Part shown: piece after piece, positions 45,099 through 50,462 of the stretch
Layout of the letters: every line of letters begins with the position of its first letter
Numbering within the stretch: the first letter of the stretch is position 1
DNA from: an uncultured bacterium
GTDB lineage: Bacteria; Verrucomicrobiota; Kiritimatiellia; CAIKKV01; CALHGX01
Direction of reading: 5' to 3'
DNA: 64,000 bases
Assembly (NCBI GenBank): GCA_938031185.1
Contig: CALHGX010000028.1
Coordinates: 1 to 64,000, forward strand
The notes under the pieces: generated by a model
What the model was told of the DNA's origin: nothing
Databases searched by the model: none
What the model saw: only the letters and a program-made list of their open reading frames with translations
Program-made: the position numbers and the translations under genes

Positions 45099-45803
45099 TC
45101 ACCAGAAGGTATAGGCACTCACGCCGATCACGTAGAGTCCCAGCAGCAGATTCGTGATGACGTGTGACCAGACGGCGGCCCACACGTCGCGCGTGCGAGC
45201 ATACAGCCAGCCATAGATCGCCCCCGCCAACAAACCGGCCAACCACCGATCGTGCTCGAAGCCAAACACCAGCGCGGTGGCCCAGAAGGCGCCCCAGCGA
45301 ATCGGGGCCGGCTCAACCTTCGTGAAATTCGGCCGGATCATCCACCGATAGAGGAAGCCTCGCCAGAAGAACTCTTCAATCGGTGCGATCACGAGGGCGG
45401 ATCCCGTCAACCGCGCGATCGTGAGCGGCCAGCCGCAGGCCGACGGCGCGAATGGCGAGGACACCGTCACGGCAGGCAGGGCCCCAAACGGACGGATTGC
45501 ATAGCGCCCATACCATTCCCGCCAGGACGAGGCGCCTTGGAAGTCGCCCGTCTCCGGCAGGACCCAAAGGGCGAAAACGATTGTGCCGACGAGGGTGGCG
45601 GGGCCCCACGTTGCGAAACGCGGCGCGGCGTAATAACGCCAGGGCCGCAGCCACAAGAAGAGGGCGCCGGCCAGCACGGTCTGCAGCGCGTAGCGCATGG
45701 CTGGCGGAGGCCAGGGCGCCATCATGACGGCAATCCAGGCGGCGAAGGGCAGCGCATGCGACCGCACGGCTTTCCATGGTGTTGGTTCCGGCGCCCCGGG
45801 CAT
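45099..45803 (-). CDS. CPBP (CAAX/Abi) family intramembrane protease, exosortase-type CAAX relative
   Basis: A 234-residue membrane protein with about seven helices. The three intramembrane protease motifs are present: EEFFWRGFLYR (Glu-Glu-x3-Arg, about 140-150), FGFEHDRW (Phe-x3-His) and WSHVITNLLLG (His-x3-Asn, about 215). Proteins of this type, annotated as CAAX prenyl protease-related, are common in Verrucomicrobia and Planctomycetes relatives. The substrate is unknown. ATG 45803 is used, since the only earlier in-frame start is TTG. It converges on DUF1846 with a 21-base gap. Confidence 0.82.
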   Translation of the reverse strand: MPGAPEPTPWKAVRSHALPFAAWIAVMMAPWPPPAMRYALQTVLAGALFLWLRPWRYYAAPRFATWGPATLVGTIVFALWVLPETGDFQGASSWREWYGRYAIRPFGALPAVTVSSPFAPSACGWPLTIARLTGSALVIAPIEEFFWRGFLYRWMIRPNFTKVEPAPIRWGAFWATALVFGFEHDRWLAGLLAGAIYGWLYARTRDVWAAVWSHVITNLLLGLYVIGVSAYTFW

Positions 45804-45943
45804 GGGTGGCAGGTTACCAAGCCGCGACGGCGCTGCCAAGCCGGGCGGACGGCGCTCCCCGGGCCAAAAGAATCAGCAATAATCAAACAACCGTCCAACA
45901 TGCGTCTAACGCCGCGTCCGCAGGATCGTAACAAAAGGATCAG

Positions 45944-48349
45944 ATGATGCATGGAAAGCACTTCCCGGTAGTACGGCGATCGGTGCCTATTGGCCGGGAG
46001 GCCCTCCAACGCCGACGGGAATGGACGCGCCGCATGTTGGACCGCGAGCAAAACGCTTCTCACGAGCTGGAGCAACTCCCGTTCGGGCCGGGCGACGTCA
46101 CGGCCGGCGCCGAAAACGAAATGCTGGCCGTCGTGCACGGTCCACGGGAACAGGTGGACCTGGCCCGCACCCTTTCCGGATCGAACTATTTTCGCAACCT
46201 CGCCCGGCGGGTGGCCGCCGGCGATGCGCCGCCGCGTCTGGCGAGAGAAATTGAGGCCTTCCTCTCTGATAATCGCGAAGCGCTGTGGGAAAACAGTTGG
46301 GTGTATTTTCCCGAAGCGCTGCTCACGCCGTATGCCCGCCGGGTCTTGGACGAAGACCTTTATGCCGACAAACGGGAGCGGACCACGCGCCGCTCGGATG
46401 TGGACCGCTTCTTCATGCACCATAACGGCACGCCTTGCGTGCGGGTGCCCGTAAGCTATCTGCTTAAGCTTTCGTTGGCCGACGCCCTTTTCGCGCAAGG
46501 CGAGCCGCCGCCGGCCCTCCGGCGCGTTGGAGAACGAGCCATGGGGCATTTTCTCAATGACAACACCTCGCCGGAAACCTTCTCCTTCTACACGGTGGAC
46601 GACCAAGCCGGTCTTGGACGGGCGATGGCCGAGGAGACGCTGCGTCGTTTCCTCATGGTGCAACTGCTCGCGCAATACGCCAACGAGAAATTCGAGCTGC
46701 GCTCCCGGGGGCAGGAAACGCGCATCTGCATGGAGCCCCACACGCCGGTGCGTCAAAAACGGTTGAACGAACTGGTGCCGGATTCCTTCTACCGCGATTT
46801 GTTCATGAGCCCCTGCCTGTCGGGCTGGGATCGCGGCGAAGAGAAGCATCAATACATGATTTTATGTCATGAGGTGCTGTCTCGCAGTCGCCTGCACACC
46901 ATGGCCAAGCTGCGCGAATGCGGGATTCTGCCGCGAAACCTGGTGACGCTGCCGACAGTGTCCAACACAAGCCTGGCCAACAATGGCACACATATCACGC
47001 TGGGCAGCCGCCGTCTGACGGCCTGGATGGCCGCCGGCCGGGACGCCTTCACGCCGGAGCGGGAAAAACATCTCGGCGATCTGACAGTGAAAATAGTGGA
47101 GCATTTTCTGCCGTTGTTTGTTGGGGCGTACACGGCGGCGCCGTACCGGTATGATTTCCACGATTTTCATCCCGAAACGGTGCTCGGGTTCCTGCCGCAC
47201 GAGCTGGACTTCACGCATTTGCGGATGCTCTGGCGGCGGTGGAAGGGCAAGGCGGACCTCCGGTTCTTCGGCATGGCGCTGACGCCATTCGGCCCGCGGC
47301 CGCTCGATCGTTTTCTAGGGGCGGCGCTGGGCTTGCGGGGGGATTGGGTGCCTGACCAGCGGCTGATTGACTACCTTGTGGCGCCGCTCAGCACGGATCA
47401 TCATCCGGCGCTGGACGGCACCATCGGCAACGACCTGCGTCTGAAGAAAGATCTGGCGGAAATGGGGGTTTTCGACCCGCGCATGGCGTTCTATGCCCTT
47501 TACCGTCAGCGTCTTTTCCAGCGGATGGGGTTCTGCGGATTCGAAGGCCGCCACTACAGCCAGTTTTCCAGTCTTGCCACCGACATGGCGGCCGCAACGG
47601 ACCTGCAGCGGCTGGTGACGGCGCTGGCCTATCGTTACGCACTGGCCGACACCGTCACCCATGCCGACATTCCCGACACGCCGGAAGTGGAGAGCGAACG
47701 CCGGCAGATTTTCTTTGGCGCCGCCATCGGCCTGCCGACTTTTTTCGTTCGCGCCCGCACGCCCAACCGCTTCTTGAGTCGTCTGTTGAGCCGCACAGCT
47801 CGCACGCGGGACAGCCATCGTTATCCCGGCCGCCTCCGCGTCTATCACGTGGAGTACCGGCGGGCCCTCGTGGCTTTACTGGAGCAGGATGCGCCCGATC
47901 TCATCGAGGCGTTCAAGATGCGCGACACGATCAGGGATTTGAAGGACCGCATCGAGCCCGGCTCCTCCGCTTCGGCGCTCAGCCGACTGCTCCGCGGGAT
48001 CCTCGACGAGGCTGGCGTTCGCACGCCGTTGCGCGCCTCGGCTGAAACCTTCAACACCGCTGCCGAACGTTACTACCGGCAGACGCTGCAGCGGGCGTTT
48101 TTCGCGGAAGCGCTGGATGTGTTTGCGCGTGATCTGCGGGAAGCCGCCGCGCGAGCCGCGGCCGGTCAGGAGGACGACCTGGCCGCCATCCGCTTCGCCC
48201 TGAACGGCGAGGATCCCGTGGCTTTCTTTGAATCCGTTCGCAACCGCGTGCAGGCGGGGCAGGCCTCCCAATCGGTGCTGCACAAACTGATTATCCTGGC
48301 TCTGGCCGTGGTCCGGCATCACGTGGAAAGGAACAGTTTGCGATCGTGA
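45944..48349 (+). CDS. Unknown 801-residue protein, first gene of PSD-Lgt operon
   Basis: I do not recognise the family. The frame is intact over 801 codons and starts at ATG 45944 after AAAAGGATCAG. There is no signal peptide or membrane segment, and the composition is basic and rich in Arg and His. Segments that look conserved in style are FHDFHPETVLGFLPHELDFT (about 403-422), TLPTVSNTSLANNGTHITLG (about 328-347), RGEEKHQYMILCHEVLSRSR and DHHPALDGTIGNDLRLKKDL. The C-terminal 200 residues are helical. Its last four bases overlap the GTG of the phosphatidylserine-decarboxylase-like gene. A ligase or lipid-modifying role would fit the partners but is speculation. Confidence 0.75.
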   Translation: MMHGKHFPVVRRSVPIGREALQRRREWTRRMLDREQNASHELEQLPFGPGDVTAGAENEMLAVVHGPREQVDLARTLSGSNYFRNLARRVAAGDAPPRLAREIEAFLSDNREALWENSWVYFPEALLTPYARRVLDEDLYADKRERTTRRSDVDRFFMHHNGTPCVRVPVSYLLKLSLADALFAQGEPPPALRRVGERAMGHFLNDNTSPETFSFYTVDDQAGLGRAMAEETLRRFLMVQLLAQYANEKFELRSRGQETRICMEPHTPVRQKRLNELVPDSFYRDLFMSPCLSGWDRGEEKHQYMILCHEVLSRSRLHTMAKLRECGILPRNLVTLPTVSNTSLANNGTHITLGSRRLTAWMAAGRDAFTPEREKHLGDLTVKIVEHFLPLFVGAYTAAPYRYDFHDFHPETVLGFLPHELDFTHLRMLWRRWKGKADLRFFGMALTPFGPRPLDRFLGAALGLRGDWVPDQRLIDYLVAPLSTDHHPALDGTIGNDLRLKKDLAEMGVFDPRMAFYALYRQRLFQRMGFCGFEGRHYSQFSSLATDMAAATDLQRLVTALAYRYALADTVTHADIPDTPEVESERRQIFFGAAIGLPTFFVRARTPNRFLSRLLSRTARTRDSHRYPGRLRVYHVEYRRALVALLEQDAPDLIEAFKMRDTIRDLKDRIEPGSSASALSRLLRGILDEAGVRTPLRASAETFNTAAERYYRQTLQRAFFAEALDVFARDLREAAARAAAGQEDDLAAIRFALNGEDPVAFFESVRNRVQAGQASQSVLHKLIILALAVVRHHVERNSLRS

Positions 48350-49374
48350 GCGCGCATCAATTCGTGGAACGCGGCTCCGGCCGTCTGGTTCAGGAACGAT
48401 TTACTGGCGATCCGCTGGTTTCGTTTTTGTACTCGCGTGTGCGGGAGCAACCGACATGGCTTTTTCGGGCGCTCACGTCCGCCCGCCTTTGCGACATGCT
48501 GGCGATGCTGCACTTCGATCTGAAGCCGACCGATCCGGCGCTCATGCGGAAGCGACTTGGCGCCCGTCTTGCGCTCGACTGGGCCGAATGTTTTGATCCT
48601 CCGGAAACGCTGGACACGGCCCGCAAGGTTTTCGAGCGGCGAATTCGATATTGGTCGTGCCGCCCGATGGACCCCGACCCTTCGGCGGTGGTTTCGCCGG
48701 CCGACGCGAAGATGCTTCTCGGATCGTTGCGGCCCGGATCCGGGCTGTTTCTCAAAAAGAAGTTCTTCCGTCTGGACGAGCTGCTTGGCCCGGAGAAAAC
48801 ACGATGGGGCCAAATGTTCTCTCAGGCCGACTACGCGATTTTTCGGCTGACGCCGGACAAGTACCACTACAACCACGCCCCCGTATCGGGCGTGGTGGCG
48901 GACTTTTATGAGTTGGACGGCGTGTACCAGTCCTGCCATCCGGCGGTACTGGTGGCGCAGGCGACGCCACATTCCAAAAATCGTCGCGCGGTTACAATTG
49001 TGGATACGGACGTGGCGGGCGGCACGGGCGCCGGATGGGTGGCGATGATAGAGATTGTGGCGCTGATGATCGGCGACATCGTGCAATGCCACAGCCGCGA
49101 GCGGTACGAGAATCCCGTTGCCATGCGGCCCGGCCTCTGGCTGGAGCGGGGCCGCCCGAAGAGTCTTTTTCGCCCGGGCAGTTCAACGGTGGTGCTGCTG
49201 TTTCAACCCGGCCGCGTTCGATTTTGCGAGGACCTGCTTGCGCACCGGGGCCGGTTGGACGCCGACACAATCTACCGTAATGCGTGGGGCGTGCCGCTGA
49301 CGGAAACGGACGTGCCGGTGCGCGCCACCATTGCCCATGCTGTTCCGAAGGCGGCGCAAGGGCTGACCTTATGA
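48346..49374 (+). CDS. Phosphatidylserine-decarboxylase-like protein
   Basis: A 342-residue protein of the PSD family, which removes CO2 from phosphatidylserine (or related carboxylates) with a pyruvoyl group made by self-cleavage. Family landmarks are FRLTPDKYHYNHAPVSG (about 164-180, like DYHR.H.P), LDGVYQSCHPAVL, KNRRAVTIVDTDV and the C-terminal SLFRPGSSTVVLLFQPGRV (about 272-290). The cleavage motif reads GSST where the family has LGST or GGST, so processing could differ. GTG 48346 overlaps the preceding stop, and the end overlaps the Lgt-like start (ATGA). It lacks an obvious membrane helix. Substrate unknown. Confidence 0.8.
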   Translation: MSAHQFVERGSGRLVQERFTGDPLVSFLYSRVREQPTWLFRALTSARLCDMLAMLHFDLKPTDPALMRKRLGARLALDWAECFDPPETLDTARKVFERRIRYWSCRPMDPDPSAVVSPADAKMLLGSLRPGSGLFLKKKFFRLDELLGPEKTRWGQMFSQADYAIFRLTPDKYHYNHAPVSGVVADFYELDGVYQSCHPAVLVAQATPHSKNRRAVTIVDTDVAGGTGAGWVAMIEIVALMIGDIVQCHSRERYENPVAMRPGLWLERGRPKSLFRPGSSTVVLLFQPGRVRFCEDLLAHRGRLDADTIYRNAWGVPLTETDVPVRATIAHAVPKAAQGLTL

Positions 49375-50462
49375 CGGCATGGCTGATACCGGCTGGGCTG
49401 GCCCTCGTGCTGGCCGTGCTGTTCGCGTGGGCGTTTGGTCGTCTTCCGCGGGCGGAGTGGCAGTTTCTTGCCGTATGGCCGCGAGAGCAAAACGACGATG
49501 GCAGTTGGCGCGGCGTCAACGTGACGTACTATGGAGTCTTCAACGCGTTGGGGGTGGCTGCAGGGACGGCCGTTGCTTTGTTCCTGCCCGCCACGGCGGG
49601 GCTGGGGCTTGGGGTACTGGCGTCGAGCATTGGCTTTCTACTGGTGATTTGCGCCCTGGCCTCGCGGCTGATCAACGGACTGGTGGAGGGGCATTGGCAC
49701 GGATTCACGATTGGTGGAGCGTCGTTTGTTGGAATCGTCTTGGCGCCCTGGCTCTTGTGGGCATTCGCGCGCATCGTGCCGGCGCTGGACGGTGCGGACG
49801 GCGTGATGCTGGTCCTGGGCGGGCTGGCTCCGGCCTATGCCTTGGGGGAGGGCATCGGGCGGCTGGCCTGCCTCAGTTTCGGGTGCTGCTATGGCCGGCG
49901 GATGGTGGATTTGCCCGCATGGCTGCGCCGCCTGTGCGGCGGCTGGGCCACGGTTTTCACCGGCCATCTGAAAAAGGCGGCCTATGCGCACGGGCTGGCG
50001 GGGGAACGTCTTGTTCCGGTGCAGGCATGGACCGTGGTGGTTTCTTCGATGGCGGGACTCCTGGGCATGGGCTTGTACTTGAGCGGGCGGCCGTTATGGG
50101 CGTATGTACTGCCGATTGTGGCGACCCAGGGCTGGCGTTTCGCGTGGGAGTGTCTGCGGGCTGACCATCGGGGGCCGGGCCGAATCACCGCGTACCAATG
50201 GATGGCGCTGGCAGGCGCGGTCTACACGGCCGTTCTTGGCGGCTGGTGGCCGGTGCGAGAGGCCGTTCGCCCCGATGTGGCGCTGGGCTGGTCGCGCCTG
50301 TGGACGCCCGGGGCGCTTCTGTTCATTCAGGCCGTGGCGCTGCTGACCTTGTTGCGGATGGGGCTGAGCACCGTCACCACCGCCCGTGTATGGTTCGGGC
50401 TGGTGCCCGATCGCGCGCTGCCGCGTGGCTGCCGGAGCCCGGAAGCGGCAAACGGAGGTTGA
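49371..50462 (+). CDS. Lgt-like membrane protein (prolipoprotein diacylglyceryl transferase family)
   Basis: A 363-residue membrane protein with about eight helices. The family signature is AYALGEGIGRLACLSFGCCYGRR (about 153-175), matching the GR(I/L)xCfxxGCCYG form of the Lgt family. Classical Lgt moves diacylglycerol from phosphatidylglycerol onto lipoprotein cysteines. Compared with it, this protein has an extended N-terminal part (YYGVFNALG, 45-90) and a divergent active-site region, and I cannot find the HGG motif of E. coli Lgt. As third gene of a tightly overlapping operon it likely works on the same lipid or head group as its partners. It may be a specialised paralogue rather than the housekeeping enzyme. 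Confidence 0.75.
   Translation: MTAWLIPAGLALVLAVLFAWAFGRLPRAEWQFLAVWPREQNDDGSWRGVNVTYYGVFNALGVAAGTAVALFLPATAGLGLGVLASSIGFLLVICALASRLINGLVEGHWHGFTIGGASFVGIVLAPWLLWAFARIVPALDGADGVMLVLGGLAPAYALGEGIGRLACLSFGCCYGRRMVDLPAWLRRLCGGWATVFTGHLKKAAYAHGLAGERLVPVQAWTVVVSSMAGLLGMGLYLSGRPLWAYVLPIVATQGWRFAWECLRADHRGPGRITAYQWMALAGAVYTAVLGGWWPVREAVRPDVALGWSRLWTPGALLFIQAVALLTLLRMGLSTVTTARVWFGLVPDRALPRGCRSPEAANGG

Follow-up and report, generated by a model that had tools for sequence, protein, structure and literature searches.

The first 64,000 nucleotides of contig CALHGX010000028.1 from an uncultured bacterium of the Kiritimatiellia (this whole stretch is called the window below) contain an operon of three genes, encoding an 801-residue protein, a protein resembling phosphatidylserine decarboxylase (PSD) and an integral membrane protein resembling the diacylglyceryl transferase Lgt. 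The structural model of the 801-residue protein argues strongly that it represents a new family of the carboxylate-amine/ammonia ligase superfamily with the glutamine synthetase (GS) fold, and predicts that it is an ATP-dependent amidoligase. The three genes are linked far beyond chance, and neither of the other two is a housekeeping copy. We consider it an evenly balanced proposition that the operon encodes a dedicated three-enzyme pathway whose product is a membrane lipid or a lipid-anchored metabolite, its head group derived from an amino acid and linked by an amide bond. The operon consists of three open reading frames (ORFs) on the + strand, laid out as follows.

45944..48349, + strand: gene of the 801-residue protein, a predicted GS-fold ATP-dependent carboxylate-amine ligase of a new family
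48346..48349, + strand: GTGA, the stop of the ligase gene overlapping the start of the PSD-like gene, as read in the sequence
48346..49374, + strand: gene of the 342-residue PSD-like pyruvoyl decarboxylase (PF02666, E 9e-33), placed in a clade of its own (support 0.92)
49371..49374, + strand: ATGA, the stop of the PSD-like gene overlapping the start of the Lgt-like gene, as read in the sequence
49371..50462, + strand: gene of the 363-residue Lgt-like integral membrane protein, with its start codon ATG at 49371 (PF01790, E 4.8e-6; 26-member alignment)

An earlier note on this DNA had described a three-gene operon with overlapping stops and starts at both junctions; its ORF coordinates are exact, and both overlaps are present.

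Conservation and distribution of the trio

Fifty loci that carry the ligase gene, the window included, were examined with wide flanks. All three genes are present in the same order (ligase, PSD-like, Lgt-like) and on the same strand in 47 of them; recurring as it does in two phyla, this linkage far exceeds what chance would produce. Of the three exceptions, two (L050 and L139) run off their contigs; the third (L151:4483-5856, - strand, in the same genome as the locus L095) encodes a 458-residue protein in which the PSD-like part is fused to a DUF2062-type membrane domain, and has no Lgt-like gene. Outside the window, an overlap between the PSD-like frame and the stop of the ligase gene recurs at no fewer than 25 of 46 loci. 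In the Desulfuromonas order the Lgt-like profile matches 31 of 136 genomes, and all 31 are among the 35 that are positive for the ligase; the pairwise distances of the three proteins correlate, with r 0.88-0.91. The earlier note had asked whether the two partners always follow the large gene, and across genera, classes and both phyla they do so with the few exceptions given above, on which counts an accidental linkage was rejected.

The gene of the 801-residue protein is carried by 4 of the 17 genomes of the window's own order, and among 289 genomes sampled from the phylum a credible homologue was found only in members of that order; a distant homologue in genome G186 (L009, E 7.7e-4) was rejected as a helicase/restriction-type protein. 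A contig scan with the single 801-residue sequence gave no match, and an alignment-guided scan of 84,980 species gave eight loci, which include Kiritimatiellae, Desulfobacterales, Desulfuromonas and Pelobacter. Profile searches of the Desulfuromonas order detected the gene in 35 of 136 genomes; in the class to which the Desulfobacterales carrier belongs it was detected in 85 of 341, some of these being fragments at contig ends. Roughly one in four of the genomes sampled from the Desulfobacteria, and from the Desulfuromonas order, has the trio, which is thus a common trait of sulfate- and metal-reducing anaerobes. On plasmids, tblastn gave no match. One genome (G606) has two complete copies of the trio (L171 and L172).

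The 801-residue protein is a predicted GS-fold ligase

At the sequence level the earlier note was right to place the 801-residue protein in no recognised family: it has no match in Pfam or NCBIfam, nine homologues likewise have none beyond chance, and it has no significant sequence match in the Protein Data Bank (PDB), where weak matches to C1r, NifB and BLOC-1 were dismissed as due to chance. An AlphaFold2 model built from 55 homologues reached a predicted local distance difference test (pLDDT) score of 89 and a predicted template modelling (pTM) score of 0.92; an earlier alignment of four sequences (homologues 64-70% identical) had given a pLDDT of only 40. The seven best Foldseek matches to this model in the PDB are all GS-fold ligases: the bifunctional GshF (3ln6), GshA of E. 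coli (2d32 and 1v4g) and of Francisella (3nzt), PafA (4bjr, two chains) and yeast GCL (3ig5). Dop (9cku) is also among the matches; the top four have probabilities of 0.98-1.00, and no competing fold was found.

The carboxylate-amine/ammonia ligase superfamily is characterized by the motifs GhExE / Ex[EH], [HD]x[NH] and Ex[RK]x2D, by acidic residues on later strands, by Arg residues and by the GS fold (Iyer et al. 2008, PMC2588565). Candidate counterparts lie on predicted strands of the 801-residue protein.

46106..46120, + strand: G-A-E-N-E (residues 55-59), GhExE-like signature on predicted strand 52-59, core strand 1; G55, E57 and E59 in 55 of 55 homologues
46559..46576, + strand: D-N-T-S-P-E (residues 206-211), predicted metal/ATP ligands around strands 203-213; D206 and E211 in 55 of 55
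46979..46993, + strand: N-N-G-T-H (residues 346-350), [HD]x[NH] equivalent on predicted strand 348-355, core strand 4; H350 in 55 of 55
47543..47551, + strand: E-G-R (residues 534-536), Ex[RK] motif on strand 531-537; E534 and R536 in 55 of 55

With its variable position included, the first signature reads G55-[AST]-E57-x-E59 among the 55 homologues. E116, on the earlier strand 114-123, is invariant in all 55, as are R523 (strand 520-523, the core strand 5 Arg) and R473 in the loop before it.

Several features count against this assignment. The Foldseek E-values are 4e-3 or worse, with template modelling scores of 0.32-0.35 on the query and of no more than 0.52 on the target. A comparison of the family with E. 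coli GshA by hhalign detects no relationship (probability 0.2). The third position of [HD]x[NH] is occupied by S (50) or T (5) in the 55 homologues, and the final position of Ex[RK]x2D, on core strand 6, is S539 in all of them, a motif from which PafA also departs (PMC2588565). Because the E-values are modest and the profile comparison is null, membership of the superfamily rests on fold and motifs together, and because of that same null comparison the protein is assigned to a new family of the superfamily and not to GshA. The structure prediction and fold search that the earlier note had proposed thus point to a GS-fold ligase.

The PSD-like and Lgt-like proteins are not housekeeping copies

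The PSD-like proteins of the trio form a clade in which no other PSD falls, and they are at most about 36% identical to other long PSDs among the full-length matches listed from the phylum sample. Equivalents of D90, H144, H147, G253 and S254 of E. coli PSD, which are its self-cleavage and carboxylate-contact residues (PMC7952604), are kept in 55 of 55 PSD-like proteins, with the cleavage site located as follows.

49177..49185, + strand: G-S-S (residues 278-280), self-cleavage site equivalent to E. coli G253-S254; G and S in 55 of 55

Because all of the self-cleavage and catalytic residues are retained, the PSD-like proteins are very probably active pyruvoyl enzymes, and if so their substrate must bear a free alpha-amino acid.

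The Lgt-like protein matches PF01790 marginally, at 26.5 bits against a curated cut-off of 24.9. In E. coli Lgt numbering, equivalents of Y26, R143, G154, R239 and E243 are kept in all 26 aligned Lgt-like proteins; H103 of the HGGL motif is replaced (V in 20, A in 4, C in 1 and I in 1), and the position of Y235 is T or S. The signature motif is also altered.

49857..49895, + strand: GRLACLSFGCCYG (residues 163-175), counterpart of the Lgt signature GRLGNFINGELWG; R143 and G154 kept, N146 and E151 both replaced by Cys in 26 of 26

R143 and R239 of E. coli Lgt line its phosphatidylglycerol site, and the enzyme is inactive as H103A/N/Q/R/Y or E151A/Q and partly active as Y235T (PMC4728403). To judge from the alignment, the phospholipid pocket has probably been kept and the side that receives the lipoprotein cysteine lost. 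The loss of H103 is suggestive, not decisive, because a second lgt gene of the window's own genome (L004) also has Tyr at this position and Cys at that of E151. A match of the Lgt-like protein to ArcB-TM was set aside as a generic match between membrane helices.

The window's genome (G000; 2.47 Mb in 80 contigs, completeness about 89%) contains another psd gene (C17:34281-34778), adjoined by a pssA-like gene (C17:33676-34212), and two further full-length lgt genes (C17:7435-8190 and C18:57823-58560). The latter of these two, L004, is a variant with GCC in its signature motif, beside the canonical lgt on C17. Exactly two psd genes are present in the window's genome and in each of the nine other carrier genomes tested, and there are pssA-like genes too. 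Since the standard psd and the two other lgt genes exist, the psd-like and lgt-like genes of the operon are not the housekeeping copies, and the explanation that they are simply housekeeping genes was rejected. The search for standard copies had been suggested by the earlier note, which also held that the operon's copies diverge from the housekeeping forms; the separate PSD clade and the replacement of H103, N146 and E151 bear it out.

Proposed pathway and alternatives

Sequence and structure prediction support the ligase fold, the intact active site of the PSD-like protein, the pocket of the Lgt-like protein with its lost His, and the obligate linkage of the genes. All substrates, the order of the steps and the product are inferred in the following scheme, which unites amide ligation, decarboxylation and the handling of a diacylglyceryl group and is the most parsimonious one. 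In the first step the ligase would convert a carboxylate, which by precedent would be the gamma-carboxyl group of glutamate, into an acyl phosphate and attach it to an amine. In the second, the PSD-like protein, as a self-cleaving pyruvoyl decarboxylase, would act on a free alpha-amino acid group: it may decarboxylate a serine-type lipid head group, giving a lipid amine that the ligase would then acylate with glutamate or another carboxylate, or alternatively the gamma-glutamyl end of the ligase product may be decarboxylated before its attachment to a lipid. In the third, the Lgt-like protein would bind phosphatidylglycerol and transfer or otherwise handle its diacylglyceryl group, not onto a lipoprotein cysteine. 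The DUF2062 protein or the 130-residue membrane protein encoded near some of the trios (see below) could carry the product across the membrane.

Some observations fit this pathway poorly. PSD acts on the cytoplasmic face of the membrane. Lgt acts on the periplasmic face (PMC4728403), and because the two enzymes face opposite sides the pathway would require a step of flipping or export. At L151 the PSD-DUF2062 fusion stands without an Lgt-like gene, so that the third step may be unnecessary there. Part of the correlation of distances among the three proteins is due to the common descent of the loci. The earlier note had envisaged a dedicated pathway for a lipid or lipoprotein head group; the conserved, non-housekeeping trio in that proposal stands, and a lipid or lipoprotein head group as its product is a suggestion drawn from the two partner families.

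A soluble amide metabolite, such as a cofactor, an osmolyte or a gamma-glutamyl compound, is an improbable product. The ligase would then make gamma-glutamyl-X, the PSD-like protein would decarboxylate it in the manner of other pyruvoyl decarboxylases, and the Lgt-like protein would be only a transporter or scaffold. GS-fold ligases mostly produce glutathione-like peptides or glutamine (PMC2588565), a gamma-glutamyl product would retain the free alpha-amino acid on which pyruvoyl enzymes depend, and several catalytic residues of Lgt are altered; however, the lipid-facing Y26, R143, R239 and E243 of Lgt are kept in 26 of 26 proteins, the PSD His that contacts the phosphatidylserine carboxylate is kept in 55 of 55, and the co-occurrence of the Lgt-like gene is near-perfect.

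We attach the same low probability to the tagging of proteins or peptides, in which a PafA-like ligase would attach an amino acid, a peptide or an aminophospholipid to proteins (compare pupylation and the conjugation of Atg8 to phosphatidylethanolamine) and the PSD-like and Lgt-like enzymes would prepare the lipid. Pup always adjoins PafA (PMC2588565), whereas none of the small ORFs (28-110 residues) beside the trio is conserved beyond closely related genomes; in favour of tagging are the presence of PafA and Dop among the fold matches, the size of the ligase, much larger than GshA and with room for a macromolecular substrate, and the fact that both partners are lipid enzymes. That the PSD-like and Lgt-like proteins are extra enzymes of phosphatidylethanolamine synthesis and lipoprotein maturation, with the ligase linked for co-regulation only, is very unlikely despite the fully intact PSD active site and partly intact Lgt motif, since the genome has a complete standard pssA-psd pair and a standard lgt, H103 and E151 are lost, and the three genes hardly ever separate across two phyla.

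Within the dedicated lipid pathway, a bolder proposal, advanced tentatively and with somewhat less than an even chance of being correct, is that a GS-fold amidoligase, and not an acyltransferase or an aminoacyl-tRNA transferase, builds a head group held by an amide bond in a new membrane lipid. The pathway would be widespread and anaerobe-specific, with a pyruvoyl decarboxylase of its own and a diacylglyceryl transferase derived from Lgt. If so, the trio would define a new class of lipid, and its ligase would be the first in the glutamine synthetase/Pup-ligase superfamily to be dedicated to lipids. The 801-residue protein would add a large family to an ancient ligase superfamily that includes glutamine synthetase, GshA and PafA, and its partners suggest the use of such chemistry on membrane lipids. 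The trio also offers a three-gene target for lipidomics, many lipids of environmental anaerobes being without known biosynthetic genes, and the labels 'Psd' and 'Lgt' are misleading for its second and third genes.

Neighbouring genes

Among 48 loci no fourth neighbouring gene is universal. DUF2062 genes are present at 18 plus 2 of these loci, mostly of the Desulfuromonas order (e.g., L133, L134, L135, L136, L138, L140, L141, L143 and L145-L150); in many of these approximately 20 loci the gene for the DUF2062 (PF09835) membrane protein lies directly downstream of the Lgt-like gene, abutting or overlapping it. The DUF2062 protein is likely to be a lineage-specific fourth member. A protein of 812-853 residues, whose PHP-like N-terminus contains an HVHS motif and whose C-terminus is a GT4 glycosyltransferase, is encoded near the trio in 13 loci, a 130-residue membrane protein in nine, and a radical SAM protein in five.

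L165:9762-12209, - strand: PHP-like/GT4 protein, also at L053, L054, L133-L136, L144, L147, L148, L151, L162 and L169

Two genomes of the window's order have, upstream of the trio, a gene for a protein of 341-351 residues that belongs to no Pfam family (L046:10367-11419 and L010:13857-14879, both on the - strand). In the window itself, the gene divergent from the operon (45099-45839, - strand) encodes a CAAX-protease-related protein of the PEP-CTERM/exosortase type (TIGR03008, E 2e-34).

Comparison with known systems

GshA and GshF are the best fold matches of the 801-residue protein, and on predicted strands of the protein the ExE and acidic motifs, with the counterparts of the His and ExR motifs, follow one another as they do in these enzymes. 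GshA differs in its length (518 residues in E. coli, versus 801) and in the absence of profile-level similarity, and the partners in the trio are lipid enzymes, not a glutathione synthetase. PafA and Dop of the pupylation system share the superfamily by fold, and a GhExE-type signature; the trio differs from pupylation in having no Pup-like small ORF conserved beyond close relatives, and in its conserved PSD-like and Lgt-like partners. The PSD-like protein has PF02666 and all self-cleavage and catalytic residues in common with Psd, from which it is set apart by its separate clade, its constant place in the trio and its presence as a second copy beside a standard psd. The Lgt-like protein shares PF01790 and the equivalents of Y26, R143, G154, R239 and E243 with Lgt, but has V, A, C or I for H103, Cys for both E151 and N146, and a Pfam score barely over the cut-off.

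Amino-acid-containing membrane lipids are products of OlsB/OlsF/GlsB-type acyltransferases, and a GS-fold ligase is not known to make them. An amide-linked amino acid in a lipid, as proposed for the trio, would belong to the same class of product (reviewed in PMC11631085). In the open-licence literature, no description of the trio was found, nor any paper in which PSD and Lgt share a cluster or a COOH-NH2 ligase is associated with PSD. The trio as a whole is distinct from glutathione synthesis, phosphatidylethanolamine synthesis, lipoprotein maturation and pupylation, and defining features of the last two are absent from it: H103 in the case of lipoprotein maturation, and a Pup-like ORF conserved beyond close relatives in that of pupylation. 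It is put forward as a new system composed of divergent members of superfamilies already known.

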